A DNA stretch of 38,199 bases from contig CAISYZ010000236.1 in the NCBI GenBank assembly GCA_903889895.1, forward strand, positions 1-38,199, read 5' to 3'. Source of the DNA: an uncultured Verrucomicrobia subdivision 3 bacterium (lineage in GTDB: Bacteria; Verrucomicrobiota; Verrucomicrobiia; Limisphaerales; UBA11358). Within the stretch, counting starts at the first letter, position 1, and every line of letters begins with the position of its first letter. The notes under the pieces were generated by a model. That model had not been told where the DNA came from and ran no database searches. It worked only from the letters and a program-made list of their open reading frames with translations. Below, piece after piece: positions 2,183 through 16,975 of the stretch. Made by a program: the position numbers and the translations under genes.

Positions 2183-3460
2183 TTAAACGGTTGCCGCCGG
2201 ACTGACCGGCTTCCATGCCACGGGAATCCGGACAAAGCCCCAGCGATGGGTCTCCATGTGCGAATCGGCGGCCTCGTTGACCAATTCGGGCAATGGGAGA
2301 CCTTCGATAAAATCCCCGTAGCGCGGGCCGTCAAACAGGCCCACCGCCAGGGAATAAGCTTCCAGCTTGAGAAATTTCAAGGGAATGGAAAATTGCACGG
2401 TATATTCCCCGACACCCAGTTGCAGTTTGGGAAACCGGTCGGAATATGATTCGGAAAAAATCTTGATGCCTTCCGCATGGACAATGGCCATGGGAATATC
2501 GAGCGTGTCCGTCGGCTGGTCGATGCGGAACCGGACTTCCACCAGCAGGTCTTCCGTGTGGTTCAGGCGGGCCACCTGCTCGCCCTGCTGGTTCATGAAC
2601 TTCAAGCTCAACAGCCGGCCGACCTCTGCGGCCCGCTGCCGGGGATGGGTGGTCAGGTCGGTGGTGCCCGCCTGCGCCGACGCATTCTGATCCAGATACA
2701 TATTGATGCCCAGGTGGGCTTCGCCCACACAGGCAACCTTACCCTGCTTCAACAAAATGACGCTCCGGCACATCTGGCGGATGGCCTGAAGATTGTGGCT
2801 GACAAACAGCACGGTCCGGCCCGCCTGCGCCACGGTTCCCATCTTGCCCATGCATTTCTTCTGGAATTCCGCATCCCCGACAGCCAGCACTTCGTCCACA
2901 ATCAAAATCTCCGGCTCCAGATGCGCCGCCACGGCGAAGGCCAGCCGCATATACATGCCGCTGGAATAGCGCTTCACCGGCGTGTCCAAAAACTTTTCCA
3001 CCTCGGCGAACGCCACAATCTCGTCAAATTTTTTCCGGATCTCCGCCCGGTGCATCCCCAGAATGGCACCGTTCAGATAAATGTTTTCCCGCCCGGTCAG
3101 CTCCGGATGAAAGCCCGTGCCCACCTCCAGCAGGCTCGCCACACGGCCGCGCAGGCGGATGCACCCGGTGGTCGGCTCGGTGATGCGGCTCAAGATTTTC
3201 AACAGGGTGGATTTGCCCGCCCCGTTGCGGCCAATGATGCCCACCGCCTCGCCCGCCTTGATCTCGAACGACACGTCGTTAAGCGCCCAAAACTCCTCCA
3301 CTGATTTCCGGTTTGCGATTTCTGATTTCCGATTTTGGAACAGGGATCTGGCCTTGTCCGCGAGGACATCACGCAGCGCCACGTAACGCCGGCCCACCGC
3401 CTGATGCCGGAGCAGGTATTTTTTGCCGAGGTTTTCAACCTTGATGGCGTAGTCGCTCAT
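2183..3460 (-). CDS. wzt: ABC transporter ATP-binding protein, Wzt-like
   Basis: A 425-residue ATPase of the polysaccharide exporter class. Walker A is GRNGAGKST (77-85), the signature is YSSGM (165-169), Walker B is ILIVDE (185-190) and the switch histidine is in VLFVSHN. The nucleotide-binding domain ends near residue 250. The rest, rich in beta strands (about 265-425), fits the C-terminal substrate-binding domain of Wzt proteins that read the end of an O-antigen chain. Its partner is the Wzm permease at 3997-4824, separated by a four-helix-bundle gene. Residues 42-53 (QNRKSEIANRKS) match no conserved ABC element and are encoded by a short, repetitive AT-rich stretch like the intergenic filler elsewhere in the window, suggesting an in-frame insertion in a surface loop. 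ATG start overlaps the inverted repeat that borders the neighbouring element. Confidence 0.9.
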   Translation of the reverse strand: MSDYAIKVENLGKKYLLRHQAVGRRYVALRDVLADKARSLFQNRKSEIANRKSVEEFWALNDVSFEIKAGEAVGIIGRNGAGKSTLLKILSRITEPTTGCIRLRGRVASLLEVGTGFHPELTGRENIYLNGAILGMHRAEIRKKFDEIVAFAEVEKFLDTPVKRYSSGMYMRLAFAVAAHLEPEILIVDEVLAVGDAEFQKKCMGKMGTVAQAGRTVLFVSHNLQAIRQMCRSVILLKQGKVACVGEAHLGINMYLDQNASAQAGTTDLTTHPRQRAAEVGRLLSLKFMNQQGEQVARLNHTEDLLVEVRFRIDQPTDTLDIPMAIVHAEGIKIFSESYSDRFPKLQLGVGEYTVQFSIPLKFLKLEAYSLAVGLFDGPRYGDFIEGLPLPELVNEAADSHMETHRWGFVRIPVAWKPVSPAATV

Positions 3461-4003
3461 TTTTTAAAAGCTGAAATCTAAAATTCTAAAAAGCTTAAAG
3501 GTAATATTCCGGTTCGCGGGCATTCTGTTTGAATTTCAGGGTTTTAGCTTTTCAGAATTTAAGTTTTAGATTTTAGGCGAAGCCGCGACACCATGGTTAT
3601 GAAAATCGCCATCAATTCACCGGTTTCACGCTGGAGCTGATCCATCCGCCCGTTTTGGATGCCACAGTCTTCCCGCAGCAGTTCAAGCCATAGTTGTGAT
3701 TCATCCGCCTCCTGCAGCAGTCCATCCAGCTTGGAGCAAAACTCCGAATCGGAACGCGCCCGGGAAGCCTCGCGGGCATGGGCCGCCACCGAGGTCCCCG
3801 AACGCAGCAGTTGGTGGCCGAGCACCTTCACCTCTTCGCGCGCCTTCGGCAGGCTGACATACAAACGAATCATTTCTGATGCGTATTGTTTTGTCCGCTG
3901 GCGCAATTCTTCGGATAAACGGCTCATGTTTTTAAATGCTAAAATGAAAATGTTTAAATAAATTTCAGAGTTTTCAAATTTTAGCATTTCAGCTTTTTAA
4001 ATG
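3459..4003. other. IVS-like element with inverted ends between wzm and wzt
   Basis: The AT-rich ends at 3459-3488 and 3976-4003 are imperfect inverted repeats: AAAAGCTGAAAT followed by CTAAAATT on one side pairs with the complement of the other, with a one-base bulge. They enclose the four-helix-bundle gene and fall exactly between the wzm stop codon and the wzt start codon. Proteins of this fold are known from intervening sequences in bacterial 23S rRNA, where flanking inverted repeats form a stem. Finding the same arrangement between two protein genes suggests a small mobile or formerly mobile unit. The mobility is inference. Confidence 0.5.
3559..3927 (-). CDS. Four-helix-bundle protein (23S rRNA IVS protein family)
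   Basis: A 122-residue protein, almost all helical, of the four-helix-bundle family first seen in 23S rRNA intervening sequences (S23 family). Typical features are the opening RTKQYASEMIRLYVSLPKAREEVKVL pattern split over two helices, then LLRSGTSVAAHAREASRARS (about 43-62) and EADESQLWLELL. The central LLRSGTSV..N/H..EA pattern is the hallmark. Its biochemical function is not established. The frame continues 20 codons upstream, but that extension is AT-rich repeat sequence, so ATG at 3927 is preferred. It sits between wzm and wzt, on the same strand, within inverted repeats, so it would be transcribed with the exporter operon without obviously belonging to it. Confidence 0.85.
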   Translation of the reverse strand: MSRLSEELRQRTKQYASEMIRLYVSLPKAREEVKVLGHQLLRSGTSVAAHAREASRARSDSEFCSKLDGLLQEADESQLWLELLREDCGIQNGRMDQLQRETGELMAIFITMVSRLRLKSKT

Positions 4004-4824
4004 ATATCGGCAAACGCCTTTTCCGTGGCCCGAAAATATTTCAGGCCGGAAAACAGCAGCAGCGCCGTTACCGTCAGCGCGGCGGCCAGGCCCCAGGCGT
4101 CAAACGCCGCCGTGCCGCCCAACGCCCACCGGTAACCATCAATCACCGCCACCATCGGGTTCAGGTCATACCACAGGTAGGCCGGGCCGACGTGCTTGGC
4201 GTGGAACACGCTGCTGGTGAAAAAAACCGGCGAGACAAAAATTCCGAACTGGACGATGAACGGGATGACGTAACGGAAATCCCGGTATTTGACATTAAGG
4301 GCCGAGAGCCACAGACCGACGCCGAACGAGGCGAAAAACGCCAGCCCCGTGAACAGCGGCAGCGTCAGCAGCCGCCACGTCGGCGGCACGTGATACCAGA
4401 CCATCAGCCCGGCCAGGATGACCAGGGAAATCAGCAGGTCGCCGAAGCTGACAATCACCGCGCTGGCCGGCACGATGATGCGGGGGAAATAAATCTTGGA
4501 AATCATGTTGGCGTTGGTGATGAGGCTGTTGCTGTCCTCCGCCAGCGCCGAGGCGAAAAACTGCCACGGCAGCGTCGCGGCACAGATCAACACCGGATAC
4601 GGCAGGCCATCAGACAGCATCCCGCCCATCTTGCCGAAGATGACCGTGCCGATGAGGATGATGAGCAGCGGCCGGATTAGCGCCCACAGCACGCCGATGA
4701 CGGTCTGCTTGTAGCGCACCAGCAGGTCGCGCCACGAGAGGAAGAAGAACAGCTCCCGATAGCGCCAGAGGTCGGCCCAGTAGTGGCGCTCCGTCTTGCC
4801 GGCTTCGATGACCATTTCATTCAT
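3997..4824 (-). CDS. wzm: ABC-2 type polysaccharide export permease, Wzm-like
   Basis: A 275-residue integral membrane protein with about six hydrophobic segments. The N-terminal amphipathic stretch (RELFFFLSWRDLLVRYKQT) followed by VIGVLWALIRPL is characteristic of polysaccharide ABC-2 permeases, as is the late LNPMVAVIDGYRWAL motif. With Wzt it would form the inner-membrane channel that exports a lipid-linked glycan. The open frame extends to 4950, but the extra 42 residues are derived from repetitive intergenic sequence, so ATG at 4824 (or 4815) is the likely start. The stop codon lies inside the inverted repeat of the following element. The exporter sits next to GT9 and methyltransferase genes, which fits an O-antigen or capsule locus. 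Confidence 0.88.
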   Translation of the reverse strand: MNEMVIEAGKTERHYWADLWRYRELFFFLSWRDLLVRYKQTVIGVLWALIRPLLIILIGTVIFGKMGGMLSDGLPYPVLICAATLPWQFFASALAEDSNSLITNANMISKIYFPRIIVPASAVIVSFGDLLISLVILAGLMVWYHVPPTWRLLTLPLFTGLAFFASFGVGLWLSALNVKYRDFRYVIPFIVQFGIFVSPVFFTSSVFHAKHVGPAYLWYDLNPMVAVIDGYRWALGGTAAFDAWGLAAALTVTALLLFSGLKYFRATEKAFADII

Positions 4825-4986
4825 GCGTGAATTAACATCCTGCCAGCCGGCGGCTAAAAGCGGAAGCCAAAACCGGAAAGTTGAGACCGAAAATTTGAAG
4901 CGCCGCGAATTGCTGGTTTCCGGTTTCGAGACGCCGGTTTGTTCGAGCATTTTCCTCCCGGCCCGATTCCGCCGGTCAGCAACCCT

Positions 4987-6060: not shown

Positions 6061-6135
6061 ATGTTTTCACCTCCTGTTCACCGAAAAAGCATTGAAAACC
6101 GGTAAATACCGGCGTTGGGATACAAAAGTGGTGGC

Positions 6136-6345
6136 TTCGGTCGCACGCGAGCCGCCTACGATTGCGGTAGCAGGGCTTTCGGTTGCAACCGAGGGCTTTT
6201 CGGTTGTAATCGAGCCGCCTTCGGTCGCGGTAGAAGGGCTTTCGGTTGCGGAAGAGCAGCCTTCGGTCGGGGTAGAAGACCTTTCGGTTGCAAAGGAAGA
6301 GCCGGCTATCGCGGCAGAAGGCCTTTCGCTGGCGATAGAGGCGTC
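6136..6345. repeat. Degenerate 21-bp tandem array, about ten copies
   Basis: Ten units of 21 bases run without spacers. Most begin TTCGGT and continue with a purine-rich half such as GTAGAAGGGCT; units start at 6136, 6157, 6178, 6199, 6220, 6241, 6262, 6283, 6304 and 6325. Because 21 is a multiple of three, all three plus frames and at least one minus frame stay open. The plus frame reads a heptad like LSVAxEG, and the minus frame (6067-6453) a Ser/Thr-rich heptad like ATExPSx. Neither has independent support as a protein, so I list this as a DNA repeat. It occupies the gap between the XRE regulator and the small gene starting at 6060; its near edge is 75 bases from that start. Confidence 0.85.
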
Positions 6346-6373
6346 CGCTGGCGTGGAAAAAAATCCCGCTGTT

Positions 6374-6751
6374 TCAGGGAGCCGCTCGCCGCCTGTTCCG
6401 GAGGCATTCACGGTGTCTATTGAAGCACACCAACTCGCCCCGGTGAATGTCACAATTGTGGCATTTTTGGCAGCCCGCCGGCAGCCGGCGGAGCCAGAAC
6501 TCGGCCTCCAAGGCCAGTTCGCTGCCGGTCAGGCCAAACCCGGCGGCCACCTGTTCCAGTGCCCGCAGACTCAAATGACGCCGGTCATCCTCCACATAGC
6601 CGATGGTCTGGCGCGAGAGGCCGGCCCGGGCCGCGAGTTGCGCGGGTTTCAGGTGGTGCCGTTCGCGCCGGCGGCGGATGACGCCGGCCAGGGCTTCATT
6701 GATAAGGGCGAGCAAGCGGGGCGGTAACGGCGGAAAAACTTTTGCGCGCAT
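6374..6751 (-). CDS. XRE-family helix-turn-helix regulator with Cys-rich tail
   Basis: A 125-residue protein. Residues about 20-80 form a Cro/C1-type helix-turn-helix: RRRRERHHLKPAQLAARAGL, then SRQTIGYVEDDRRHLSLRAL and EQVAAGFGLTGSELAL. This is the usual pattern of an XRE DNA-binding domain. The tail contains a Cys cluster (GCQKCHNCDIHRGELVC) that could bind zinc. The open frame continues to 6799, but ATG at 6751 gives the normal domain start. It lies downstream of the SDR gene on the same strand, about 90 bases away, and next to the 21-bp array, which could be its target or simply a neighbour. I cannot assign regulated genes. Confidence 0.8.
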   Translation of the reverse strand: MRAKVFPPLPPRLLALINEALAGVIRRRRERHHLKPAQLAARAGLSRQTIGYVEDDRRHLSLRALEQVAAGFGLTGSELALEAEFWLRRLPAGCQKCHNCDIHRGELVCFNRHRECLRNRRRAAP

Positions 6752-6840: not shown

Positions 6841-7551
6841 TCAAACTGGATGATTCTCGCCCTGACCCAGCACGGCAGAATCTTCCACCAACTGGAGGAT
6901 GCGCGCGGCGGCCTCCGTCGGAAGGGTGATCCGTCCGGCATTGGCACGGATGGCCTCGCTCAAGCGGGCATCCCATTGCTGCGTCAACGGCGTTTCCATG
7001 TAGCCCGGCGACACGCTGAAAACCCGGACGCCGCGCGCGGCATATTCGGCGGCGAGCGCCAGCGTGAAACCTTGCAGCGCGTATTTCGCCGTCAAGTAGG
7101 CGGCGAAACCCTTGGGCGGCGCGCCTTCGATGGCGGAAGTCAGGACATTGACGATGGTGCCATAGCCTTTTTTTAGCATGAGCCGGATCAAGGGCTGCGA
7201 GCAGCTCCACGCACCCTTGACCGCGACCAGAAAATTTTTCTCGAAATCCGCCCAGCCCAATTGGTGCAGCGGCATCGGCGAAAACGCGGCGCAGGCATTG
7301 TTCACCAGCGTCAGGCTGTCCGCCGTCTGAATTTCCGGGCGCTGCCACAGCGCCGGGTCGGCGGAGCAAACGTCGTGACGCAAGGCGTGGCCGGAAATTT
7401 TTTCCGACGCCATGAGTTCGACCAGTTCGCGTGCCGCGTTTTCATCGGCGGCATACAACGCCAGCACGTCGTAGCCCGCGCGACCGAAGGCGAGCGCGAT
7501 TTCGCGGCCCAAACCTTTGGTGCCGCCGGTGACGATGACGGTGCGTTTCAA
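6841..7551 (-). CDS. Short-chain dehydrogenase/reductase (3-oxoacyl reductase-like)
   Basis: A 236-residue classical SDR. The cofactor motif TGGTKGLG is at the N-terminus (about 7-14), followed by LVNNACAA in the NNAG position, and the catalytic pair is in AAYLTAKYAL (Tyr-x3-Lys) with the preceding Ser in LTSAIEG. The C-terminal SPGYMETPLT is typical of FabG-like reductases. It probably reduces a 3-oxoacyl thioester or a related ketone with NAD(P)H. I choose the TTG at 7551, read as KRTVIVTGG, because it overlaps the stop of the preceding gene (TTGA) and AGGAGG lies four bases upstream; the longer frame to 7599 runs through the neighbour. This overlap implies translational coupling to the MaoC gene. 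It is last in the acylation locus. Confidence 0.85.
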   Translation of the reverse strand: MKRTVIVTGGTKGLGREIALAFGRAGYDVLALYAADENAARELVELMASEKISGHALRHDVCSADPALWQRPEIQTADSLTLVNNACAAFSPMPLHQLGWADFEKNFLVAVKGAWSCSQPLIRLMLKKGYGTIVNVLTSAIEGAPPKGFAAYLTAKYALQGFTLALAAEYAARGVRVFSVSPGYMETPLTQQWDARLSEAIRANAGRITLPTEAAARILQLVEDSAVLGQGENHPV

Positions 7552-7994
7552 ATTTCCTCCTTGAGCATGACTTGGATTCGCCCGCGCGCCGCCGGGCATT
7601 GGCGCGTGGTGTTGGTGAGCGCGACATCGAGGACGACGACTTTTTGCGCCTCCATTTTTTGGCTGACCGTGGCCGCCAGTTGAATCGTGTCGCCGAGATA
7701 CGAAGGATTGGCAAACCGCAGATCCACCGACAGCAGCAAACTGAACCGGCCCGGAAAGTGCATCCCGACGAAGTGGGAAATAAAACCGTTCAACACAGAG
7801 CCGTGCATCACCTTGCCCGCGAAGCCGCGCGACTTGGCAAACACCTCGTCCACATGAACCGGGCTGTGATCCTGAAACGCGGCGAGAAAGTGCGCATACA
7901 CTTCCGGCGTGATGACGTAATCGTGCGCCACCTTCATGCCCACGTTGATTTCGTGGTAATGAAACGTGCGCAAGGCGTTCGGGGCGTCGCTCAT
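7548..7994 (-). CDS. MaoC-like hot-dog dehydratase/hydratase
   Basis: A 148-residue single hot-dog domain protein of the MaoC family. The active-site segment AAFQDHSPVHVDEVFAKS (about 38-55) carries the Asp-x4-His pair of (R)-specific enoyl hydratases, followed by GKVMHGSVLNGFISHFVG, the long central helix. The strand LLLSVDLRFANPSYLGDTI is also typical. It should hydrate an enoyl thioester or dehydrate a 3-hydroxyacyl thioester, on CoA or ACP. Its ATG lies six bases after the natural end of the MBOAT frame (8001), and its stop overlaps the SDR start. The pair MaoC plus SDR suggests processing of a short acyl chain in the same pathway as the ACP. The exact substrate is unknown. Confidence 0.88.
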   Translation of the reverse strand: MSDAPNALRTFHYHEINVGMKVAHDYVITPEVYAHFLAAFQDHSPVHVDEVFAKSRGFAGKVMHGSVLNGFISHFVGMHFPGRFSLLLSVDLRFANPSYLGDTIQLAATVSQKMEAQKVVVLDVALTNTTRQCPAARGRIQVMLKEEI

Positions 7995-8000
7995 TTTAAC

Positions 8001-8117
8001 TCACCGCAGCGCGGCGAAAATTTCCTTCATTTGCGGAAACGTGTTGGCAAACAAAAACAGGCTCGCGGCGCAGTAGCCAAAAGTCAAGGTCACGGCGACG
8101 GCGCGAATCCAACGGTT
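8001..8117 (-). other. Stranded C-terminal end of the MBOAT gene
   Basis: After the TAA at 8118-8120 the same frame continues for 38 sense codons to TGA at 8001-8003. The peptide runs NRWIRAVAVTLTFGYCAAS, then a hydrophobic LFLFANTF and QMKEIFAALR, which looks like the last membrane segment and tail of an MBOAT protein. The six-base spacing to the MaoC ATG also fits the real end of the gene being here. There is no good separate start codon or ribosome site. Confidence 0.75.
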
Positions 8118-9218
8118 TTAATTGTAGGCTTTGAATTTTTCGCGCCCCAATTTCTTTTTCAGAAAGATGGTGTAGTAATGGTTCGCCACCACGCCGAGCG
8201 CGTGGACTGCGCCGAACGCGGCAAAATTCCAGCCGACCCCGTGCCAGATGCCCACAAGCAGAAACACCACCGTGATCGTCAGCGCTATCGCGTGGTCGGC
8301 CAGCTTGATGCCCATCTTGGTGACGAGGAATTTGGAGAGCGGCGAGAACACGACGTCGCGCATCCACACGGACAGCGTGATGTGCCAGCGATTCCAAAAA
8401 TCCTTCACGTTGCGCGCGGCAAACGGATGGTCGAAATTTTCCGGCACAGGGATGCCAATCAAACCTGCCGCGCCAATCGCCATGTCGCAGAAACCGGAAA
8501 AATTCAGGTAGAGATACAAATAGAAAAACAACATCGCCACCGGCAGGTCCACCCAATGATGCGGGTGGTCGTCCAGCAGCAGGCCGGAATACGTGAGCTG
8601 GTTGCAAAGGCCGGCGAGGAACTGGTATTTGACCGCGCCGACGAGGATGCGGAGCGCGGCGCGGCCGACGGGAACGTCGTAGCGCTCGATGAAGCCGCGG
8701 CGGAAATTGGCGTAGGTGTTGATGGGCCCGACGGACATCGTGGGCAGGAAAAAGGCAAAGTTCACATATTCGAGCAAGCTGGGCATTTTCACCACGCCGT
8801 TGCGGACTTCCAGCACCAGCCGGCTGCAGCGGAAGGCGAGGTAGGAGATGCCAATCATTTGCGGCACGCCGCGCCAGCTCTGGCCAAAGGCGTGGCCGAA
8901 CGCCACATAAAATTCGCCCGGCACATAGCGGATGACGATGAGCGCCGCAATGGGCGCGAAGAACGCCAGCCACGGCCAGGCCCCGCGCTTGTCCGCAAAC
9001 AGCAGCACGACGAGATAAAGGCCGACAATAAGCCCGACATAGATTCCAAATCGCAGGGCGAAGTGCTCCTTGCCGCCGTAAAACAGGAAAAAGAAAACGC
9101 CGCCCAGATTCAAGGCGGCCAGCGCCGCTTCGCGGAGGGCACCGTTAAGCCGGCGCATCACCACGCGGCCCGCCAGAATGTAGGCCAGCAATCCGGCCAG
9201 CTGATAAAGCGAGTTCAT
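8118..9218 (-). CDS. MBOAT family O-acyltransferase, truncated by an in-frame stop
   Basis: A 366-residue polytopic membrane protein of the membrane-bound O-acyltransferase family (DltB/AlgI type). The conserved block FWNRWHITLSVWMRDVVFSP (275-294) and GIWHGVGWNF (323-332) contain His279 and His326, matching the two conserved MBOAT histidines. Other family marks are FFLPTMSVGPI (about 156-166) and LYLYLNFSGFCDMAIG. It should take an acyl group from a cytosolic carrier protein and pass it across the membrane. A TAA at 8118 interrupts the frame 39 codons before the natural stop at 8001, removing the final hydrophobic segment. It begins three bases after a DltX-like microprotein gene and lies in the same run as SGNH and ACP genes. 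Whether the truncation is real or a sequence error is not decidable here. Confidence 0.85.
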   Translation of the reverse strand: MNSLYQLAGLLAYILAGRVVMRRLNGALREAALAALNLGGVFFFLFYGGKEHFALRFGIYVGLIVGLYLVVLLFADKRGAWPWLAFFAPIAALIVIRYVPGEFYVAFGHAFGQSWRGVPQMIGISYLAFRCSRLVLEVRNGVVKMPSLLEYVNFAFFLPTMSVGPINTYANFRRGFIERYDVPVGRAALRILVGAVKYQFLAGLCNQLTYSGLLLDDHPHHWVDLPVAMLFFYLYLYLNFSGFCDMAIGAAGLIGIPVPENFDHPFAARNVKDFWNRWHITLSVWMRDVVFSPLSKFLVTKMGIKLADHAIALTITVVFLLVGIWHGVGWNFAAFGAVHALGVVANHYYTIFLKKKLGREKFKAYN

Positions 9219-9221
9219 AAG

Positions 9222-9353
9222 TTAAAATCCCTGATAGACCACCGTGTTATCCAAGGCATAGGAATACGAGATCACCGTCGCAGTCAGCGCCGCCAAGGAC
9301 AGGACGACCAGCAGACCGACCAGCAAATTTTCAATGATGGGTTGACGTATCAT
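9222..9353 (-). CDS. DltX-like single-span microprotein, copy 2
   Basis: A 43-residue protein. Residues 1-9 are MIRQPIIEN, followed by one hydrophobic segment (about 10-30) and a short tail that ends VVYQGF at the carboxyl terminus. With the charged N-terminus inside, the tail would face the periplasm. Its ATG at 9353 overlaps the end of the upstream SGNH gene by 23 bases in another frame, and its stop is three bases before the MBOAT start, the position DltX genes take beside dltB. The microprotein at 10502-10633 has the same length, a matching R-x-P-hydrophobic-E opening, a shared LAAL core and the same ending VYQGF. In the Dlt system the C-terminal tyrosine of such a motif carries the acyl group. 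That role here is inference from position and motif. Confidence 0.8.
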   Translation of the reverse strand: MIRQPIIENLLVGLLVVLSLAALTATVISYSYALDNTVVYQGF

Positions 9354-10428
9354 AGGCTGATAAAAGGCTGGGGGTAATCAGCGCGGTGAAAAAATCCTGC
9401 CCGTTTTTACTAAAATGATCCGGGCCGGAAAAGCACTTAAACGCGTCCTCATCATTCAGGCCCTGAAACATGGCAGCCGGCGGAACGCCGACCAACCACG
9501 GATGGCCGGCCAAAATTTCCGGCCAACATTCGCGTTCATGAATCAGCGGAGAACGGATTTCGCGGTCGGTGGGGAAATGCAGGAAGACCACCTGAACGTG
9601 ATAAGATTCTGCCAGCGCCATGATTTTGCGGGCAAAATAAAACTGCAGCGGGGTCGTGGCGGGGCCGGTGAATTTGAAGCTGGCCGCGGTGGCCGGGGAG
9701 TAAATGCAGGTGGCGGCCGGGTTGACCCCGGTTGAGGGCTGAAAGGGAACAAAACAACCGCCTACTTGGTAGGGCAGGCAGACGCCCAGCGAACCCATGG
9801 TGGTGGCGGGATTGGCGGCGTGATACTTGTCGTTCAGATAGGGAGTGGCGGTCAGATCGGCGGGGAGATTGGGGCGCACAAGACCCAGCAGGTTGCGCGG
9901 CAAACCCAGAATCGCCCCAGAATAATAGGCCGCCTGGAGCGGCAAGGACAAGCCGGTCAGATCGGCCCAATCATCGCCATAGCGGAACCAGCGGTGGGAC
10001 ATGGTTTGCGGGCGCCGATAGGGAATGGGCTGTTCGTCGCAGATGACCAGCACCTGCAGCCGCCGGTGTTGCAGCAAATCTTTGGCGATGAAATAGACGG
10101 CATCAAACCCCGGCCACTCCCAGCCCAAAGTGACCACCGTGGCCGGCCGGCCCACATGCTGGCTCAAGGCGGCCTGGACATACGGAGCGTTGACGCCCCA
10201 CCACATATGGGAGGAGCCCAGAAAGGCGATGTCGATGGCATTCGTTTCCTTGAAAATTTGCTGCTCCAAGTAGGGATATGCCCCGAAACGCCAGGCGACG
10301 GAAGAATAGCTTTCCTCCCGTGGCGGCAGGAATCTTTGGCCGGCCAGCCAGGGTGCCAGCAGCACCAGCAGCAGCAGCCCAGTAAAGGCCGCAGTCTGTT
10401 TCAGGGATGAAAAGGCCGATCGCATCAT
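9331..10428 (-). CDS. Membrane-anchored SGNH/DltD-like protein, copy 2
   Basis: About 365 residues from ATG 10428, chosen because MMRSAFSSLKQTAAF aligns with the start of the paralogue at 10623-11726 (MMRPAFTSTKQAAAF). The open frame extends to 10590 and another ATG lies at 10443. A hydrophobic segment (about 13-28) anchors it, with the rest outside. The nucleophile motif is in IDIAFLGSSHMWW, where the second Ser of GSSH falls at the GDS position of SGNH hydrolases. The last block is GPDHFSKNGQDFF, giving the His but not the usual Asp three residues before it. By analogy with DltD or AlgJ/X it would move an acyl group to or from an envelope polymer. It is followed by its own microprotein gene, which overlaps it. 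Confidence 0.75.
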   Translation of the reverse strand: MMRSAFSSLKQTAAFTGLLLLVLLAPWLAGQRFLPPREESYSSVAWRFGAYPYLEQQIFKETNAIDIAFLGSSHMWWGVNAPYVQAALSQHVGRPATVVTLGWEWPGFDAVYFIAKDLLQHRRLQVLVICDEQPIPYRRPQTMSHRWFRYGDDWADLTGLSLPLQAAYYSGAILGLPRNLLGLVRPNLPADLTATPYLNDKYHAANPATTMGSLGVCLPYQVGGCFVPFQPSTGVNPAATCIYSPATAASFKFTGPATTPLQFYFARKIMALAESYHVQVVFLHFPTDREIRSPLIHERECWPEILAGHPWLVGVPPAAMFQGLNDEDAFKCFSGPDHFSKNGQDFFTALITPSLLSAYDTSTHH

Positions 10429-10501
10429 GGCTGATTTTGGCATTTCAGGCGGCTGACCCGATGCGATGGAAGTTGAATGCGCACAAGAAAAATTTCCGCT
10501 C

Positions 10502-10633
10502 TCAAAACCCCTGATAGACGGCGTGGGCATCCATAAAATTCGCCGGGACACTCGCTTCCAGCCACAAGGCGGCCAGAGCCAGGATGACAATCAGCGCATA
10601 GATAAGGGATTCAACTACCGGCCTAGTTTTCAT
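10502..10633 (-). CDS. DltX-like single-span microprotein, copy 1
   Basis: A 43-residue protein opening MKTRPVVESL, with a hydrophobic segment (about 10-25, ending in LAALWL) and a short extracytoplasmic tail ending AVYQGF. It is the same length as the microprotein at 9222-9353 and shares the R-x/P-hydrophobic-hydrophobic-E start, the LAAL core and the last five residues. The ATG at 10633 overlaps the end of the upstream SGNH gene by 11 bases, as in the other pair, so each SGNH gene is followed by its own microprotein. Too short for ordinary gene calling, it is supported by the paralogue comparison and conserved position. The predicted function is to carry an acyl group on Tyr40. Confidence 0.8.
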   Translation of the reverse strand: MKTRPVVESLIYALIVILALAALWLEASVPANFMDAHAVYQGF

Positions 10634-11726
10634 AAAGGTTGAGCAACGCTGGAGTGATCAGTGGGGTGAAATAATCTACGCCGTTTTTGTTTAAATGGGC
10701 CGGATTGAAATAGAGCTGGCGGACTTCGTCATCGGTCAAGCTGCCAAACATTTTGGCTGGCGGAACTCCTAGCAGGGTCAGGCCGGGCATGATTTCCGGC
10801 CAGCACCGCCGCTCGCGGATTTCCGGGAGCCGGGCCTCGCCCAGCACTGGAATATGCAGCATCACCAGCTTGCACCCATGATCCCGGGCCAGCGCGGCGA
10901 ACAGTTTTGCAAAATGCAGATGCCAGTCCGGCATGGCCTCGCCGGTAAATCGAAAGTCATTTTTCCGAGCCGGCGAATAAACCTCCGCGTCCGCCGCCGT
11001 CACCCCGGTGGCCGGCTGGTAGGGCAAAAAGAGGGTGAAATCATCCTGATCCAGCCGCCGGGTAAAACCCAGTTCTGAACGGGTGGCTCCGAGCAATTCC
11101 ACGATGCTGGGCGAGCCGTAACTCCGCTCCCAATAATTGGGCTGGGCGGTTACCAGCGGCGCGGCGAGGTTGGGCCGGAATATTTCGATCAAATTGCGCG
11201 GCATGCCGACGATGGCGGAAAAATAAAAATGGCAGGCATCGGCAAACGCCAGACCCTGAAGTGAATCCGCATTCTCGCCGTAGCGAAACAGAAATGTCAT
11301 CAGCGAGTTGCGCGTGTGGAGAACATTATTCTCGTCGTAAAACACCAGCAGCCGCACCCGGCGATGCGTCAGCAAATCCTGAGCGATAAAAAAAAAGGCG
11401 TCGTAGCCACCGCCCGCCCAGCCGATCGTGCGGACGACGGCTGGACGATGCAACTGCTCACTCAGCCGGGCTTGGACATACGGCGTGTCGATGGCGTGCA
11501 AAATATGGGATGAGCCGACAAAGGCGATGTCAATGTCGTTGGTCTCCTCGTAGATTTCATGGCGAATCCACGCCACGGGACCCATGCGCCAACCGCAGGT
11601 GGAGTAAGCCTGCTCCCGTGGTGGCAAAAGATTTTTTCCGACGATTACCGGCGAAAGCAAAACCACCAACAGCAACAACGCGAACGCCGCCGCCTGCTTG
11701 GTGGAGGTGAACGCCGGACGCATCAT
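10623..11726 (-). CDS. Membrane-anchored SGNH/DltD-like protein, copy 1
   Basis: A 367-residue protein, paralogous to that at 9331-10428 throughout (shared PPRE-x-x-YS start of the mature domain, ETN-IDIAF-GSSH, TPYVQARL, and a closing ITPALL). A hydrophobic N-terminal segment (about 12-29) is followed by an extracytoplasmic domain. The nucleophile motif is GSSH at 71-74, with Ser73 at the expected place. The C-terminal block is FNPAHLNKNG, with His344 and Asn341 where a D-x-x-H pair is usual. It probably transfers an acyl group between the microprotein tyrosine and an envelope polymer. The start has no strong ribosome site; about 170 bases of mostly repetitive sequence separate it from the ACP gene, so a separate promoter is possible. 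Confidence 0.75.
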   Translation of the reverse strand: MMRPAFTSTKQAAAFALLLLVVLLSPVIVGKNLLPPREQAYSTCGWRMGPVAWIRHEIYEETNDIDIAFVGSSHILHAIDTPYVQARLSEQLHRPAVVRTIGWAGGGYDAFFFIAQDLLTHRRVRLLVFYDENNVLHTRNSLMTFLFRYGENADSLQGLAFADACHFYFSAIVGMPRNLIEIFRPNLAAPLVTAQPNYWERSYGSPSIVELLGATRSELGFTRRLDQDDFTLFLPYQPATGVTAADAEVYSPARKNDFRFTGEAMPDWHLHFAKLFAALARDHGCKLVMLHIPVLGEARLPEIRERRCWPEIMPGLTLLGVPPAKMFGSLTDDEVRQLYFNPAHLNKNGVDYFTPLITPALLNLYEN

Positions 11727-11894
11727 GCGAAACGGGGAATGCAGAAGGCAGAAACAGTGACCGCAATAAAGCGCAAAAAATGATGGCGGAAATTCAATGT
11801 TAACGCTTTACCCATCGCACAAACATGACGGGGTGCCAGAGAAAAGGTTGTATTCATTTTCTTCGCGTTTTGGCGTCTTGGCGGTTCGTATAAA
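11727..11894. other. Gap between ACP and SGNH genes with a repeat fragment
   Basis: Shorter than 300 bases but worth recording. Bases about 11860-11890 contain TTCTTCGCG, TTTTGGCG and TCTTGGCGG in succession, a low-complexity pattern I recognise as a common dispersed intergenic sequence in planctomycete and verrucomicrobial genomes. No clear promoter or terminator is visible, so whether the ACP and SGNH genes share one transcript is open. Confidence 0.4.
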
Positions 11895-12140
11895 TCACGG
11901 CTCCTGCTTGCGCTTGAGAATCAGGTCGGCAAACTCGCCGACATTTTTGGTGTTCTCCACCTCGCCGACGCGGAAGCGCACGCCGAAAGATTTTTCCACC
12001 GCGACCATCAGCGAGATGTGCGTGAGCGAATCCCATTCCGGCACGTCCTTCGCGCTGAGGGCGGGCGTGAGCACCACCGGTTCCAGAAACACAGTGTCGA
12101 AAATGGTCTGCAATTGGGCGATGACTTCAGCTTGGGTCAT
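11895..12140 (-). CDS. Acyl carrier protein
   Basis: An 81-residue acyl carrier protein. The phosphopantetheine attachment motif is EWDSLTHISLM with Ser38, in the normal place at the start of helix II, and the helix III region is VENTKNVGEFADLI. The overall length and the acidic surface are normal for a stand-alone carrier. It lies 41 bases after an FkbH-type gene and upstream of the SGNH/microprotein/MBOAT genes. FkbH enzymes typically load a glyceryl group from 1,3-bisphosphoglycerate onto a partner ACP, so this is the likely carrier for the MBOAT. It is not obviously the fatty-acid ACP: no fab genes flank it. No DltA-like adenylating enzyme is present in the window. Confidence 0.9.
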   Translation of the reverse strand: MTQAEVIAQLQTIFDTVFLEPVVLTPALSAKDVPEWDSLTHISLMVAVEKSFGVRFRVGEVENTKNVGEFADLILKRKQEP

Positions 12141-12181
12141 AAAATTTCAAAGGATGGATTTCAAGTGGCGAAGCTTCGCGC

Positions 12182-14050
12182 TTACTTTTCCGCATACGCT
12201 TGCCGGACAATTTTTATTTTGGTTTCACGCGGCGCAAAATTTTCCAGCCGCAGTTCAAATTCGCGTTTCGCCTCGGATTCGGCGGTGAGAGTAAATCCCA
12301 TCTTGCCGTAAAAATCACGCACCATTTCGTTCTTCGGCGTCGGCAGGTAAACGCCGGCGAGGCGCGGGCAGTTTTTCCATTTGGCCAGCCGCACCAGCTC
12401 GTTCAAAACGATTTCTTCCACGCCGCGCTTGAGCACGCGGCAGCTCATCAGCCAGGTGTCAATGTTCAGCGTCTCGCCAACTTTTTCACCGATGACGATG
12501 GAAATCAAACCGTGGTCGCCAAACCGATCCTTCAGCCGCACGGAATAGCCGATGAAATTTTCATCGTTCATCACGGCGGTGACTTCCGCCTCGCTGCGGC
12601 GGTGCGTGGTGAGATTGAACTGGTTGCTCTTGTTGATGAGCTGCGACAGGCGCGGCACATCCACCGGCGTGAATTCGCTGATGACCGCCTCCATCTGCAG
12701 CGATTCGAGATACGCGCCCATGTCCGTGACCGACGATTCCAGCGCCTTGCGCTGCACATCGGAACGATACTGGCTCGTGCGCTCGGCGTCCTCGGCGGTG
12801 ATGTTGCGCGGCTCGAACAAACGCGAATCGGCGAGCTGCCCGACGTATTCCGACGGATCGGGGCCGAGCAGAATCGTCGTCACTTCGGGCACAAATTGCC
12901 GGACAATTTCGATCTCCGCCGGGTTGTCGTCCACGAACACAAAACTGTCCAAGCCCAAATTTAATTCCGGCGCCATTGCGCGGATGTTTTCCGACTTCGG
13001 TTCCCAATTCGCCTTGAAGCTTACGATGTCGTCGAGCTTCAGCACCATGTCGGGATGTTTCTGAAACGGCTCCTGCGCCCTGGCCAAATCATTTTTGCTG
13101 CACACGGCCAGCAGCACGCCGCGCTGCTTGAGCGAGGCGATATATTTCTGAAACGCCTTGAACGCCTCGCCGCGCGGCGAGGTGTCGCCGAGTTCGATGC
13201 CGTCCAAACCGTCGTCCGCCACCACGCCGCCCCAGAGCGTGTTGTCCAAATCCAAAACCAAAACTTTTTTCGGCGCGCGCTTGAGCGAAAAAATTAAATG
13301 AGAAACTTCGCGCGCCAGTTCCACGAGCAGCGCGGAGGAACACGGCTGCTTGCTCTCGAACCACCCGCGCTCGTCGCGCGCGGCGAGGCCGCCGTGCCGG
13401 TGCGCGAGAAACGACCAGTCGCAAATGTGCAAATACGACGGCGCGGCGAGGCCGAGTTCCAAGTTGACCCATTTGCGGAACGCCCAGTCCGAGCCAAGCG
13501 TGCGCGAGCGGAACGCGCCGAGGTCGTGCCGCGCGGGCAGCATGAAATTGGTGGTGATGACCTCCGCGCCGGTCTTCTCATTCACCTTGCGCGCGAGTTC
13601 CAGCAGCGAATCCACGGCGCGCTGCGCCTCGGCCTGCACGAGTTCGCGCGGGTCGGTGAGCTTGCCGGTGTAAATACAGCGCCGCTCGGCGGGCAGCATG
13701 AAGACGACCTGCGGCGCGAACGAATAAAGCTCGCTGTCGTCGTCCATGATCTCGGACAGGTAATTGTCGTAATCGCCCTGCCACAGCTCAACCGGGTGAT
13801 TTTCCAGTTCGCACAGATGTTCAATGAGTTCGTGCAGCGGATAAAGGCTATAACCGCCGACAAGCGCGAGGCGCAGTTTTTTGGCGGGCGCATCCGGCTT
13901 GGCTAATTTGCGCGCGTGCGCCTTTTTGCGGAGCGACGAGAGCAAAAACAATTCGCCAAAATCGTGCGCGGATTGGGTGAGCGATTGCAACTGCGCCCAG
14001 AATTCCGGGTCACCCTTGAGCAGCAAAGATTTTAGCTGGTTGATGTCCAT
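12182..14050 (-). CDS. FkbH-like HAD-IIIC protein with C-terminal GNAT-like domain
   Basis: A 622-residue protein with the FkbH layout. An N-terminal domain of about 250 residues includes LALVGGYSLYPLHELIEHL. The HAD core follows, with VLDLDNTLWGG (265-275, Asp267 and Asp269), LLAVCSKND (313-321, with the conserved Cys) and FVDDNPAE (372-379). A C-terminal acyltransferase-like region (about 470-615) ends in an ESEAKREFELRL segment. Known FkbH enzymes take D-1,3-bisphosphoglycerate, remove a phosphate and load the glyceryl group onto an ACP. The ACP gene is next downstream, 41 bases away, which supports that partnership. It is predicted to be cytosolic. Whether it really makes glyceryl-ACP or another acyl donor cannot be read from sequence. 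It is preceded by a GT2 gene on the same strand. Confidence 0.88.
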   Translation of the reverse strand: MDINQLKSLLLKGDPEFWAQLQSLTQSAHDFGELFLLSSLRKKAHARKLAKPDAPAKKLRLALVGGYSLYPLHELIEHLCELENHPVELWQGDYDNYLSEIMDDDSELYSFAPQVVFMLPAERRCIYTGKLTDPRELVQAEAQRAVDSLLELARKVNEKTGAEVITTNFMLPARHDLGAFRSRTLGSDWAFRKWVNLELGLAAPSYLHICDWSFLAHRHGGLAARDERGWFESKQPCSSALLVELAREVSHLIFSLKRAPKKVLVLDLDNTLWGGVVADDGLDGIELGDTSPRGEAFKAFQKYIASLKQRGVLLAVCSKNDLARAQEPFQKHPDMVLKLDDIVSFKANWEPKSENIRAMAPELNLGLDSFVFVDDNPAEIEIVRQFVPEVTTILLGPDPSEYVGQLADSRLFEPRNITAEDAERTSQYRSDVQRKALESSVTDMGAYLESLQMEAVISEFTPVDVPRLSQLINKSNQFNLTTHRRSEAEVTAVMNDENFIGYSVRLKDRFGDHGLISIVIGEKVGETLNIDTWLMSCRVLKRGVEEIVLNELVRLAKWKNCPRLAGVYLPTPKNEMVRDFYGKMGFTLTAESEAKREFELRLENFAPRETKIKIVRQAYAEK

Positions 14051-14094: not shown

Positions 14095-15018
14095 TTACCG
14101 TTTGGTGATAAGTTGTTCGAGTTCGAGCAACCGGAGATTCATGCTGTTCAGAATCAGGCCGAGGCCCAGCGAAAAGAATGACAGCATCACCAAGGCCGCC
14201 GCGAGGATGGCGCTGGGCACGCGGTGGACAAAATGGTTCGGGTCGGTAACAAAATCGTAAACCGGCAGCGAACCCGCCGCCAGGCCGAGCAGAAACAAAA
14301 GGATGGCGATGCTGCCGAAAAAGGTCAGCGGCTTGTAGGATTTGACGATGAGAAACAGCCGCAGCAGCACGCGGAAGCCATCGCTAAAGGTGTTCAGCTT
14401 GGAGAAGCTGCCGGCGGGCCGGGCGCGATAGGGAACCGGCATTTCCTTGATGACCTGACCGCGATAGAGTGCCTGCAACGTGATTTCCGTCTCCACATCA
14501 AATCCCTTGGTGGTGACGGGAATTTGGCGCGCCGACTCGCGCGTGAACGCGCGGTAGCCGGAAAAGATGTCCGAGACGTGCGACTTGAACATCCAATTGA
14601 TGATGCCGCAGACCAGCTGGTTGCCGGCGACGTGGAGCGGGCGAAAGGATTTTTCGCCATGGCTCGTCAGGCGCGTGGCCACGGTCATGTCGGCATCGCC
14701 GCGCATAATGGGTTCCAGCATCTGGTGGACGTGGCTGGCCTCGTAGGTGTCGTCGCCATCCACCATCACGAGAATATCCTCCTGAATGTGCTCGAACATC
14801 GCGGCGACAACGTAGCCTTTGCCCTGGCGCTTTTCCCGGCGCACCACCGCGCCGGCCTGAGCGGCGATCTCGGCGGTGCCATCGGTGCAGTTGTTGTCGT
14901 AAACGTAAATGCGCGCGGCCGGCAGCTCACGGCGGAAATCGGCGATGACCTTGCCGATGGTCAGCGCCTCCTGATAACAGGGAATGATGATGGCGATAGA
15001 AGGTTTGGCTTCGGGCAT
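14095..15018 (-). CDS. Family 2 glycosyltransferase with C-terminal membrane segments
   Basis: A 307-residue GT2 enzyme of the dolichol/polyprenyl-phosphate sugar synthase type. It starts SIAIIIPCYQEALTIGKVI, has the YDNNCTDGTAEIA motif and the metal-binding DGDDTYEASH segment (about 87-96), and later FSGYRAFTRE and GFDVETEITLQAL. Two hydrophobic segments (about 230-255 and 270-295) anchor it to the inner membrane. It would transfer a sugar from a nucleotide donor to polyprenyl phosphate or a related lipid. The large membrane protein at 15023-16975, just four bases upstream, could be the enzyme that uses the lipid-linked sugar. A related enzyme is at 19579-20769, so the sugar-lipid pair is present twice. 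Confidence 0.88.
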   Translation of the reverse strand: MPEAKPSIAIIIPCYQEALTIGKVIADFRRELPAARIYVYDNNCTDGTAEIAAQAGAVVRREKRQGKGYVVAAMFEHIQEDILVMVDGDDTYEASHVHQMLEPIMRGDADMTVATRLTSHGEKSFRPLHVAGNQLVCGIINWMFKSHVSDIFSGYRAFTRESARQIPVTTKGFDVETEITLQALYRGQVIKEMPVPYRARPAGSFSKLNTFSDGFRVLLRLFLIVKSYKPLTFFGSIAILLFLLGLAAGSLPVYDFVTDPNHFVHRVPSAILAAALVMLSFFSLGLGLILNSMNLRLLELEQLITKR

Positions 15019-15022
15019 AAAA

Positions 15023-16975
15023 TTATATTCGTTGAGCCGGGTTCAGCTGCACCAGATACCACGATTCGTATTTCGGAGCGGAGTGGGCGTCAAGCATTAC
15101 ATTGCGGGGATAGGTGAAAACAATTTTGCCGCCGACAAGGTCCAGCCAGGTTTTGAGGTCGGTCTGATAACGCTCCATCAGCCCGCGCTCCGTGACCACG
15201 GCGTATTTCAAATCCGCCGGCGGGAGACTACCACTGGCCAACGGCAGGCCCAGTTCAACGATTGTCCGGCGGCCGAAGGGACGAAACAAGCCGTAAGGCG
15301 TATCATGAAAACCGGCGGCATAACCCAAATGCGTAGCGTCCGGCGGCAACTGGTCGCGCAGAGGCGCCAGGTCATCGCGCAAGCCGGCCCAAAAATCATA
15401 TTGATCGGCAATCTTGCCGACCGCCGCACTGCCGGTCAAGTGAGCGAGGGTTCGCGCCGGCACCAGCGGGCGCGTGGGCGTCAAAATAATCACCGGAATC
15501 ACCATGACCGCCGCACCGCCCGCCAGCACGCCAAAAACTTTTTTGCGTTCCAGCACCGCCGCTGGCGGGCAACGGAGCAGCGCAACGAGCAGCAGCGGAT
15601 AATACGCCGCCGCAATGCGGGGCGAATGGTCGGAGCCGAGCTTGGCGAGATACACCGCAAACGCCAGCCACGTCAGCCACGGCATGAGCCGCCACGCCCA
15701 GGGCAGCGAAATAGCGGCCGATGGGGAAGTGCCAGGTTTTAATAGGATGAGTCCGGCGAGCAACAGGGCGAGATAAATTGCGAGACCGAAACCCAGCCCT
15801 GCCGGGCCTTCGTAAGCCATTTCGCCAAAATGAACCCCCATGAACTCCAGATGCGCCTGCCCCAACCGATGAACCAAGGAGCTATGATTGAAGCCGGCCA
15901 GCAGCTCGTTGATATGCTGGCTGCCGGGCAAATAAGGCGGCTGCAAGGCATCCTTGGCAAACAAAATCACATTGGCCGCCGCCGCCCCGACCGCGCCATG
16001 GGTTTTGTTGCCCCATTGATCCACCGGGTCGCCCATCCAGTCGCCCGTGTTTTCCCAAGATAAAAAAGCCAACGGCAAAAACGAGCACCCAACGGCCAGC
16101 AGACCCACGAAAATAATTTTCCAGTTGAACCATGACACACGCGCCAGCACGGGCAGCAAAAGCACGCCCAACGGCAAGAGCAAAGGCAGATTGGAAACTT
16201 TCGCCCCCGTGAGCAACGCCGCCGCCAGCAGGGCAAACCAGAGTCCATCATGGCGGCGGGAATGATACGCGAACGCGGCAAAACCAATGGCCGCGAGCAG
16301 ATAGTTCACCGCGTAGCCGTCATTTTGCAGGCCGCTGGATTGAAGCGCATAACAATAGCCGGACGGCAGCAGCCACATCCAACGCCGCGCGCTCCGGCCG
16401 TTCACACCAAGGGCGCGAAAGGCCAGAAACACCAGCCCCGGCATGAGCACCAACGGCAGCCAGTTCAACAGGAACAAGCAGCGGTCGCTGTGCGTCAATT
16501 CGATGACCGGCAACAACTGCCATTCAAAACCGGCGCTGCTGAAATCCAGCCGGTGATCCAGCGTGCCGATCCAATACCAGTGATGCGCCGACCACCAGTA
16601 AAGCAGGCGCGGCAGCCGGTAAGTCGCAGCATCGAAGCTCCACGGGTGGGGATTCACCAGCGCGGCCAGCAGCGACAAACCGACAATGAGCAGATAAATC
16701 AACGGCAGCGGCCGGAGAAAGCGGCGACGCCACTTGGTAAAGTTGACAGAGTTCCCGCGCGCTGAAGCTGTGGCCTTAAGCCAGAAATAAATTGCCACCA
16801 GCAATACCGGCAGCACCGCCAGGTGCCCCCAGCCGGAAAGCTGGCTGACCGCCGACAATCCCCAGCCGGAAAGTGAACACCACGCCGACCACAACAACCA
16901 ACAGCCAGCCAACCGCAAGGCCAGCGGCAGGGCGCGATGATGGGACTGGTCAATGGACACGAAAAAAGTTAGCAA
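15023..16975 (-). CDS. Large GT-C-type membrane glycosyltransferase-like protein
   Basis: A 650-residue protein with about a dozen hydrophobic segments and a periplasm-like C-terminal domain (about 520-650). After the second membrane segment comes SFDAATYRLPRLLYWWSAHH (about 114-133). The Asp and YRLPR motif is also in the paralogue at 20818-22689 (YDALAYRLPRVLNW) and is in the position of the catalytic acidic loop of GT-C enzymes such as the GT39 family. It may use a polyprenyl-phosphate sugar made by the adjacent GT2. No acceptor can be predicted. It begins the minus-strand run, divergent from the GMC gene at 17102, so the 126 bases between probably hold both promoters, although I could not pick clear boxes. 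Confidence 0.7.
   Translation of the reverse strand: MLTFFVSIDQSHHRALPLALRLAGCWLLWSAWCSLSGWGLSAVSQLSGWGHLAVLPVLLVAIYFWLKATASARGNSVNFTKWRRRFLRPLPLIYLLIVGLSLLAALVNPHPWSFDAATYRLPRLLYWWSAHHWYWIGTLDHRLDFSSAGFEWQLLPVIELTHSDRCLFLLNWLPLVLMPGLVFLAFRALGVNGRSARRWMWLLPSGYCYALQSSGLQNDGYAVNYLLAAIGFAAFAYHSRRHDGLWFALLAAALLTGAKVSNLPLLLPLGVLLLPVLARVSWFNWKIIFVGLLAVGCSFLPLAFLSWENTGDWMGDPVDQWGNKTHGAVGAAAANVILFAKDALQPPYLPGSQHINELLAGFNHSSLVHRLGQAHLEFMGVHFGEMAYEGPAGLGFGLAIYLALLLAGLILLKPGTSPSAAISLPWAWRLMPWLTWLAFAVYLAKLGSDHSPRIAAAYYPLLLVALLRCPPAAVLERKKVFGVLAGGAAVMVIPVIILTPTRPLVPARTLAHLTGSAAVGKIADQYDFWAGLRDDLAPLRDQLPPDATHLGYAAGFHDTPYGLFRPFGRRTIVELGLPLASGSLPPADLKYAVVTERGLMERYQTDLKTWLDLVGGKIVFTYPRNVMLDAHSAPKYESWYLVQLNPAQRI

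Follow-up and report, generated by a model that had tools for sequence, protein, structure and literature searches.

Nine genes on the minus strand of a contig from an uncultured Verrucomicrobia subdivision 3 bacterium appear to encode an envelope acylation locus in which an FkbH-family protein, and not DltA, would charge the carrier protein. The contig (CAISYZ010000236.1, from a metagenome-assembled genome) was analysed as a window of 38,199 nucleotides, to which all coordinates refer. The locus spans positions 6841-14050, in the order FkbH, acyl carrier protein (ACP), SGNH1, microprotein 1, SGNH2, microprotein 2, MBOAT, MaoC and SDR. Judging from the sequences, we consider it fairly likely that these genes form a trans-membrane acylation machine of the Dlt type, with FkbH feeding it in DltA's place, and we are reasonably confident that FkbH, ACP, MBOAT, microprotein and SGNH work together as one chain.

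The charging pair and the relay

The genes are tightly packed, with gaps of 41 bp after FkbH, 168 bp after the ACP and 3 bp before the MBOAT, and overlaps of 11, 23 and 4 bp between other neighbours. A preliminary description of this DNA had listed the same nine genes in close steps on one strand, and all nine are present in that order; it had not noted that the MBOAT frame is interrupted by an in-frame TAA.

FkbH belongs to its family above the curated threshold (NCBIfam TIGR01686, 313.7 bits against a cut-off of 146.65) and also passes Pfam FkbH_N (27.5 bits, cut-off 27); its only sequence relative in the PDB is 3slr_A. Both DLDN.LWGG and Cys317 (in AVCSKND) are invariant in the 11 aligned sequences, one of them partial. 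For the ACP, the top NCBIfam match is a general ACP model (E 4e-5, under the cut-off) and no Pfam match appears at 1e-3; the DSL serine and its flanks are kept in 12 of 12 aligned relatives. FkbH is the sole carrier-loading enzyme in the locus: no AMP-binding gene was found among the 30 window open reading frames (ORFs) scanned with Pfam, and the DltA model TIGR01734 was above its cut-off in none of 59 genomes, with sub-threshold matches in all 59. The locus had been called DltA-less in the preliminary description, and rightly so. A DltA present but unrecognised was considered and rejected, as our genome has only sub-threshold matches (five among the matches listed), the best in a 1341-aa frame of contig C127 and none, among the matches listed, on the locus contig. 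We also rejected FkbH as part of a polyketide synthase (PKS) or nonribosomal peptide synthetase (NRPS), neither of which occurs among the 30 scanned frames.

Since FkbH replaces DltA, the expected acyl group is a glycolysis-derived hydroxy acid rather than D-alanine. FkbH would take glycerate from 1,3-bisphosphoglycerate and load it on the ACP as a thioester, as its family membership suggests, and on sequence grounds the acyl group is probably derived from glycerate. In polyketide research, glyceryl-ACP is the product usually proposed for FkbH (PMC7489565), and one table of PMC7901079 gives D-lactate-ACP as the FkbH product.

The MBOAT resembles DltB. The window copy matches Pfam MBOAT at 73.8 bits and LTA_dltB (TIGR04091) at 194.8 bits (E 2.6e-57), under the equivalog cut-off of 375. 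TIGR04091 is the best NCBIfam family in 10 of 10 MBOATs tested, all under that cut-off: 180-203 bits in three that are accompanied by a microprotein and 113-184 in seven that carry the shuttle motif fused to their own C-terminus. DltB proteins are the only solved sequence relatives found for the family, and a model of the L037 copy (predicted local distance difference test score, pLDDT, 74.9) has DltB as its top three Foldseek matches (E 2.4e-11 to 7.9e-11, template modelling score, TM, 0.67-0.70). His326 of W-H-G, which we take to be the catalytic histidine, is invariant in 12 of 12 aligned sequences.

Both microproteins have a basic N-terminus followed by one hydrophobic helix, and microproteins of this kind retain the tyrosine and the last phenylalanine of the published FxYxxF motif, the locus MBOATs being without a C-terminal hexapeptide. 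As the microproteins were first picked by their motif, the junctions between SGNH and MBOAT genes were rescanned without regard to it: the longest same-strand ORF encoded 41-46 aa with a C-terminal Y-x-x-F at 14 of 14. At the SGNH1-SGNH2 junction of the window another ORF (46 aa) is longer than the 43-aa microprotein, and three further SGNH-SGNH junctions scanned (L024 once, L026 twice) have no microprotein. According to PMC12148441, the DltX microprotein ends in FxYxxF, and the acyl group travels between DltB and DltD on the tyrosine of this motif; there, non-Dlt MBOAT/SGNH pathways have the hexapeptide at the MBOAT C-terminus, with neither a carrier protein nor a DltX-like microprotein.

The SGNH proteins match no Pfam or NCBIfam family, and a profile search of the PDB with their alignment gave no match at E up to 1. 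The SGNH1 model (pLDDT 81.9) retrieves only DltD chains at Foldseek ranks 1-12, and in VIA-align the longest alignments listed are those with DltD, at Z 9.3-9.9 over 237-243 residues. The GxS serine (Ser72) and His343 are invariant in all 17 rows of the alignment. By homology to DltB/DltX and PatA, the MBOAT would pass the acyl group from the ACP to the Y-x-x-F tyrosine of the microprotein; the SGNH protein would then take it from the tyrosine and place it onto what is presumably an extracytoplasmic glycan. With two SGNH-microprotein units, the window locus would act on two acceptors or at two positions.

Recurrence of the locus and its tailoring enzymes

The core of FkbH, ACP, SGNH (one to three copies), microprotein and MBOAT recurs in Limisphaerales and related Verrucomicrobia. 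Relatives of SGNH1 were found in 13 of 146 related genomes (our own included) and on two further contigs, L039 and L047, with the same setting in all 15 loci. The ACP precedes SGNH in 14 (the exception is L025), microprotein and MBOAT follow it in 14 (L034 ends first, and its genome has MBOAT-MaoC-SDR on another contig), and FkbH precedes the ACP in 13, G028 and G035 having FkbH fragments at contig edges. Recurrence in 14 other genomes is more than chance. FkbH orthologues (at least 65% identity, next match at most 42%) occur in 16 of the 146 genomes and this type of MBOAT (E up to 1e-60) in 15, all 15 of which have both. Gene order is conserved in relatives and the families co-occur, as the preliminary description had proposed to check, and its architectural inference, with FkbH as the sole loader and no DltA, is borne out. 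An even draw of 387 genomes of the phylum returned our genome only when searched with the MBOAT alignment at 1e-40, and our genome plus one weak 41-residue match when searched with the SGNH alignment. Our genome has another MBOAT, of 483 aa, on contig C70, with the C-terminus FIYFRF.

Some copies have peculiarities of their own. The second SGNH copy of G028 (L025 9164-10292) is split into two overlapping frames, the first copy being intact. In G035 (C8 19682-29635) a second MBOAT is found some 8 kb from a second FkbH, 39% identical; the two may belong to a fused-type copy that this genome has in addition. A radical-SAM/BATS gene after the ACP in G034 and G048 was considered as an alternative partner and left out, as its Pfam domain set is ThiH-like.

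The enzymes that accompany the core differ among loci. VOC was searched for in the sister loci because such a gene adjoins the loci of S. meliloti and Rhodobacteraceae described below. Among 15 loci, MaoC+SDR is present in seven (the window, G009, G014, G038, G050, G065 and L047, where the pair lies upstream of FkbH), VOC in six (G005, G013, G042, G047, G035 and G034), both in none and neither in two (G028 and G041); the tally leaves out L039, which ends inside the MBOAT, G018, whose locus is broken, and G048, which has no MBOAT. Under independence and ignoring ancestry, the chance of zero overlap is 28/5005 = 0.0056 for 7 and 6 of 15 and 0.016 for the first 13 loci. When 13 of these loci are placed on an MBOAT tree, the two labels intermingle: the well-supported branches by themselves require three or more changes in each, and neither label is more clustered than shuffled labels. 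The preliminary description had reported neither this exchange nor the DltX-like shuttle tail of the microproteins. In the cassette position of G041, directly after the MBOAT, lies an AT3 acyltransferase (L033 7976-9163; PF01757, 96.9 bits).

Conserved residues were seen in each enzyme: D..P.H in nine of nine MaoC sequences, Y and K (Y...K) in seven of seven SDR sequences, and H, E, H and E positions, presumably metal ligands, in VOC. The best NCBIfam family of VOC is methylmalonyl-CoA epimerase (TIGR03081) in 8 of 8, at 28.5-58.3 bits against a cut-off of 114.95, and the sister-locus VOC proteins do not qualify as members. We infer that the cassettes may be alternative enzymes for the same ACP-bound C3 acid. 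By the simplest route, MaoC would dehydrate glyceryl-ACP to enol/pyruvyl-ACP and SDR would reduce this to lactyl-ACP; the bryostatin loading module is a precedent for FkbH, ketoreductase and dehydratase together giving lactyl. That the acyl group delivered in this genome is lactyl is a tentative suggestion. In sister loci, the epimerase-like VOC enzyme would invert glyceryl-ACP at C2 to give L-glyceryl.

Two plasmid regions give independent support for linking MaoC and SDR with FkbH-ACP. Niveispirillum has MaoC and SDR fused in one protein beside FkbH-ACP, and a record of Subdoligranulum variabile has an FkbH-ACP-MaoC-SDR row (L129 7764-11235), possibly a free-standing module for lactyl-ACP or a similar product in Bacillota. 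Such a fusion also stands beside FkbH in G361. The Niveispirillum region (L056 9695-14175) reads FkbH-ACP-WcbI-(MaoC-SDR fusion), WcbI being a capsule-protein family.

FkbH was also compared with plasmids by tblastn, and the first three FkbH regions were opened (S. meliloti, Rhodobacteraceae SC52 and Niveispirillum). S. meliloti pSymB has the order VOC, MBOAT, a GGS...DPGH protein, ACP, FkbH, and the SC52 plasmid ACP, FkbH, MBOAT, a GSS...DAAH protein, VOC. Their MBOATs carry the motif themselves, with 522 aa ending FLYQGF and 515 aa ending FIYFNF, respectively. The survey of FkbH counted 43 places, our own included; 40 stretches from 39 genomes of other Verrucomicrobiota, drawn by FkbH matches with G384 and G316 left out, were inspected, and ACP and MBOAT adjoin FkbH in five, whose MBOATs all end x-x-Y-x-x-F. 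FkbH-ACP and MBOAT therefore meet repeatedly, and in all seven FkbH-ACP-MBOAT cases lacking a found microprotein the motif is on the MBOAT. An SGNH-like neighbour of the fused-type MBOAT was found in four of these seven loci by a simple pattern, plus L091 by eye. A 'TonB-dependent receptor' annotated between MBOAT and ACP on S. meliloti pSymB (CP140883, L058 6978-8207) shows GGS and DPGH; it is probably misannotated and looks like the SGNH partner.

Evidence against and competing explanations

Several findings weigh against an FkbH-fed Dlt-type machine. SGNH1 has only a weak likeness to DltD (E 1.5e-3 and TM 0.36 for the best Foldseek match), and in VIA-align many generic SGNH esterases reach Z 9-11 over about 155-190 residues, i.e., higher Z over shorter alignments. 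At the SGNH aspartate position there is D in 9 of 17 rows, N in five, and E, G and a gap in one each; the window copies carry N and G. The first F of FxYxxF is absent from all 16 microproteins, which have V, A, I, L, S or P. The TAA at 8118-8120 removes the last 39 residues of the MBOAT, whose frame is open onward to 8001, and among 12 genomes compared ours alone has a stop inside this gene, the 11 others being open. FkbH also occurs apart from the relay: 35 of the 40 other verrucomicrobial stretches have no adjoining MBOAT, several of them having ORFs of thousands of residues, of PKS or NRPS size; the Subdoligranulum row has no MBOAT and the Niveispirillum region none in view; G048 has GT-C, GT2, FkbH and ACP without this MBOAT type; and G034 has microprotein-MBOAT-VOC apart from FkbH-ACP, with no SGNH match.

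The stop codon and the altered SGNH aspartates of the window could mean that the locus is decaying in this genome and acylates nothing here, the family working elsewhere. In sister genome G018 (L137 8157-9681) the N-terminal half of FkbH runs straight into the MBOAT's C-terminal half, as if one deletion had removed ACP, SGNH and microprotein. However, all other locus genes of the window are open and conserved, and one wrong base is possible in a metagenome-assembled genome; the TAA may be an assembly error, a polymorphism or decay. We regard loss of function here as unlikely.

Alternatively, the locus may hold two separate functions: FkbH, ACP, MaoC and SDR would supply a secondary-metabolite or lipid precursor, and MBOAT, microprotein and SGNH would acetylate a glycan from acetyl-CoA, like PatA/AlgI. 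Subdoligranulum does have FkbH-ACP-MaoC-SDR with no MBOAT, as does Niveispirillum, where WcbI joins the set, and PKS/NRPS clusters are the setting in which FkbH is most familiar. Such a division is quite improbable given that the gene order is tight and overlapping, that all 15 genomes having this MBOAT also have the FkbH, that the MBOAT resembles DltB, which uses a carrier protein, that the same coupling occurs with fused-motif MBOATs in Alphaproteobacteria, and that PKS and NRPS genes are lacking among the scanned window frames. Least probable of all, at a slim chance, is an ACP carrying a 3-hydroxyacyl that fatty-acid synthesis provides, MaoC and SDR doing their customary work and FkbH serving as a thioester-exchange or GNAT-type acyltransferase: SDR does best match FabG-like 3-oxoacyl-ACP reductases and MaoC enoyl hydratases, but the locus has no ketosynthase, 8 of 15 loci lack MaoC and SDR, six of these having instead a methylmalonyl-CoA-epimerase-like VOC without an obvious role in fatty-acid synthesis, and both the HAD motif and Cys317 are retained in FkbH.

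Gene neighbourhood, known systems and significance

The acceptor glycan of the proposed FkbH-fed machine would probably be built by the adjoining GT2 and GT-C glycosyltransferase genes (Table 1) or exported by a nearby Wzm/Wzt transporter. The GT2 protein, which we take to be GtrB-like, is a likely glycan partner; a close homologue also adjoins FkbH in L027, L028, L136 and L139, and homologues of the multi-membrane-spanning protein occur near other copies of the locus. Downstream on the same strand lie an O-antigen-type ABC exporter (2183-4950), composed of a Wzm-like permease and an ATPase that matches Wzt_C weakly, under the cut-off, and a GT9 glycosyltransferase (197-1216). From these neighbours, the likeliest acceptor is a lipopolysaccharide O-chain or another exported glycan. 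Past the end of SDR, between a helix-turn-helix gene and the next ORF, positions 6067-6453 hold a repetitive, coding-like stretch rich in Thr, Glu and Ser (ATE-like repeat units). Long plus-strand ORFs opposite the locus genes (e.g., 7572-9377) were set aside as antisense of high-GC coding DNA. MBOAT, MaoC and SDR all score above their Pfam cut-offs.

Table 1. Locus genes and two upstream neighbours, in order of transcription (window coordinates; TM, transmembrane)
Feature	Position	Strand	Description
FkbH	12182..14050	-	622 aa; FkbH-family HAD-IIIC glyceryl transferase/phosphatase, predicted ACP loader in DltA's place
ACP	11895..12140	-	81 aa; stand-alone acyl carrier protein, serine in EWDSL
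SGNH1	10623..11726	-	Predicted membrane-anchored, DltD-like SGNH transferase
Microprotein 1	10502..10633	-	43 aa; one TM helix, C-terminus AVYQGF; predicted DltX-like acyl shuttle
SGNH2	9331..10428	-	Start re-placed at 10428; second copy, 44% identical to SGNH1
Microprotein 2	9222..9353	-	43 aa; C-terminus VVYQGF; 3 bp before MBOAT
MBOAT	8118..9218	-	DltB-like, without fused C-terminal shuttle; stops at in-frame TAA
MaoC	7548..7994	-	MaoC-type acyl dehydratase; Pfam MaoC 48.2 bits
SDR	6841..7551	-	FabG-like ketoreductase; TTG start overlaps MaoC stop; Pfam adh_short 111.6 bits
GT2 glycosyltransferase	14095..15018	-	C-terminal TM helices; 44 bp upstream of FkbH; Pfam Glycos_transf_2 69.8 bits
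Multi-TM protein	15023..16975	-	Probably GT-C glycosyltransferase (by eye), no Pfam match; possible glycan partner

As the search for DltA gave nothing above the cut-off, the locus does not count as a Dlt operon; it plausibly works like one. It shares with Dlt a carrier protein, a DltB-like MBOAT without a C-terminal extension, a separate one-helix Y-x-x-F microprotein and a membrane-anchored SGNH protein whose nearest Foldseek match is DltD. It differs in having FkbH for DltA, a Verrucomicrobiota host, the added MaoC+SDR or VOC and no first F of FxYxxF. With PatA-PatB-type O-acetyltransferases, as parts of PMC12148441 describe them, it shares the relay from MBOAT to tyrosine to SGNH serine, but those enzymes use acetyl-CoA as the donor, have no carrier protein and bear the tyrosine on the MBOAT. 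The presence here of both a carrier protein and a microprotein is what the same passages deny to non-Dlt MBOAT/SGNH pathways. Polyketide FkbH-ACP pairs likewise join an FkbH-family enzyme to a stand-alone ACP; their glyceryl-ACP, according to the passages concerned in PMC7489565, serves tetronate or methoxymalonyl units, whereas the neighbours here are envelope acyltransferases. The S. meliloti pSymB and SC52 loci share the FkbH-ACP pair, an MBOAT, a nearby VOC and the YQGF or YFNF ending, and differ in that the motif is fused to a longer MBOAT and the SGNH-like protein is of another sequence family; their annotations name only HAD, ACP, MBOAT and others.

The component parts are known, and the relay is of the Dlt/PatAB kind; its pairing with FkbH and the exchangeable cassettes are apparently undescribed. 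In the open-licence literature searched, we found no description of FkbH charging coupled to a DltB/X/D-like relay, of FkbH with envelope acylation, or of exchangeable MaoC+SDR and VOC cassettes with such a relay, and FkbH together with MBOAT appeared there for aeruginosins only. The preliminary description had known of no such envelope-acylation pathway, in agreement with that search.

We further put forward, with somewhat less than even confidence, that these loci represent a widespread class of envelope acylation in which FkbH taps 1,3-bisphosphoglycerate without an ATP-using ligase. The cassette would set the acyl group (D-glyceryl by default, L-glyceryl with VOC, lactyl with MaoC+SDR), and there would be two builds: in Proteobacteria and various Verrucomicrobiota the MBOAT itself would bear the tyrosine, and in Limisphaerales a microprotein would. 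If this is true, the microprotein build would be a Dlt-like system outside Gram-positive bacteria, the Dlt machine would be modular, with a swappable charging enzyme, and surface decoration would be tied directly to a glycolytic intermediate. The glycerate or lactate esters of bacterial polysaccharides could then also be explained genetically, and the S. meliloti version puts the idea within reach of a tractable organism.

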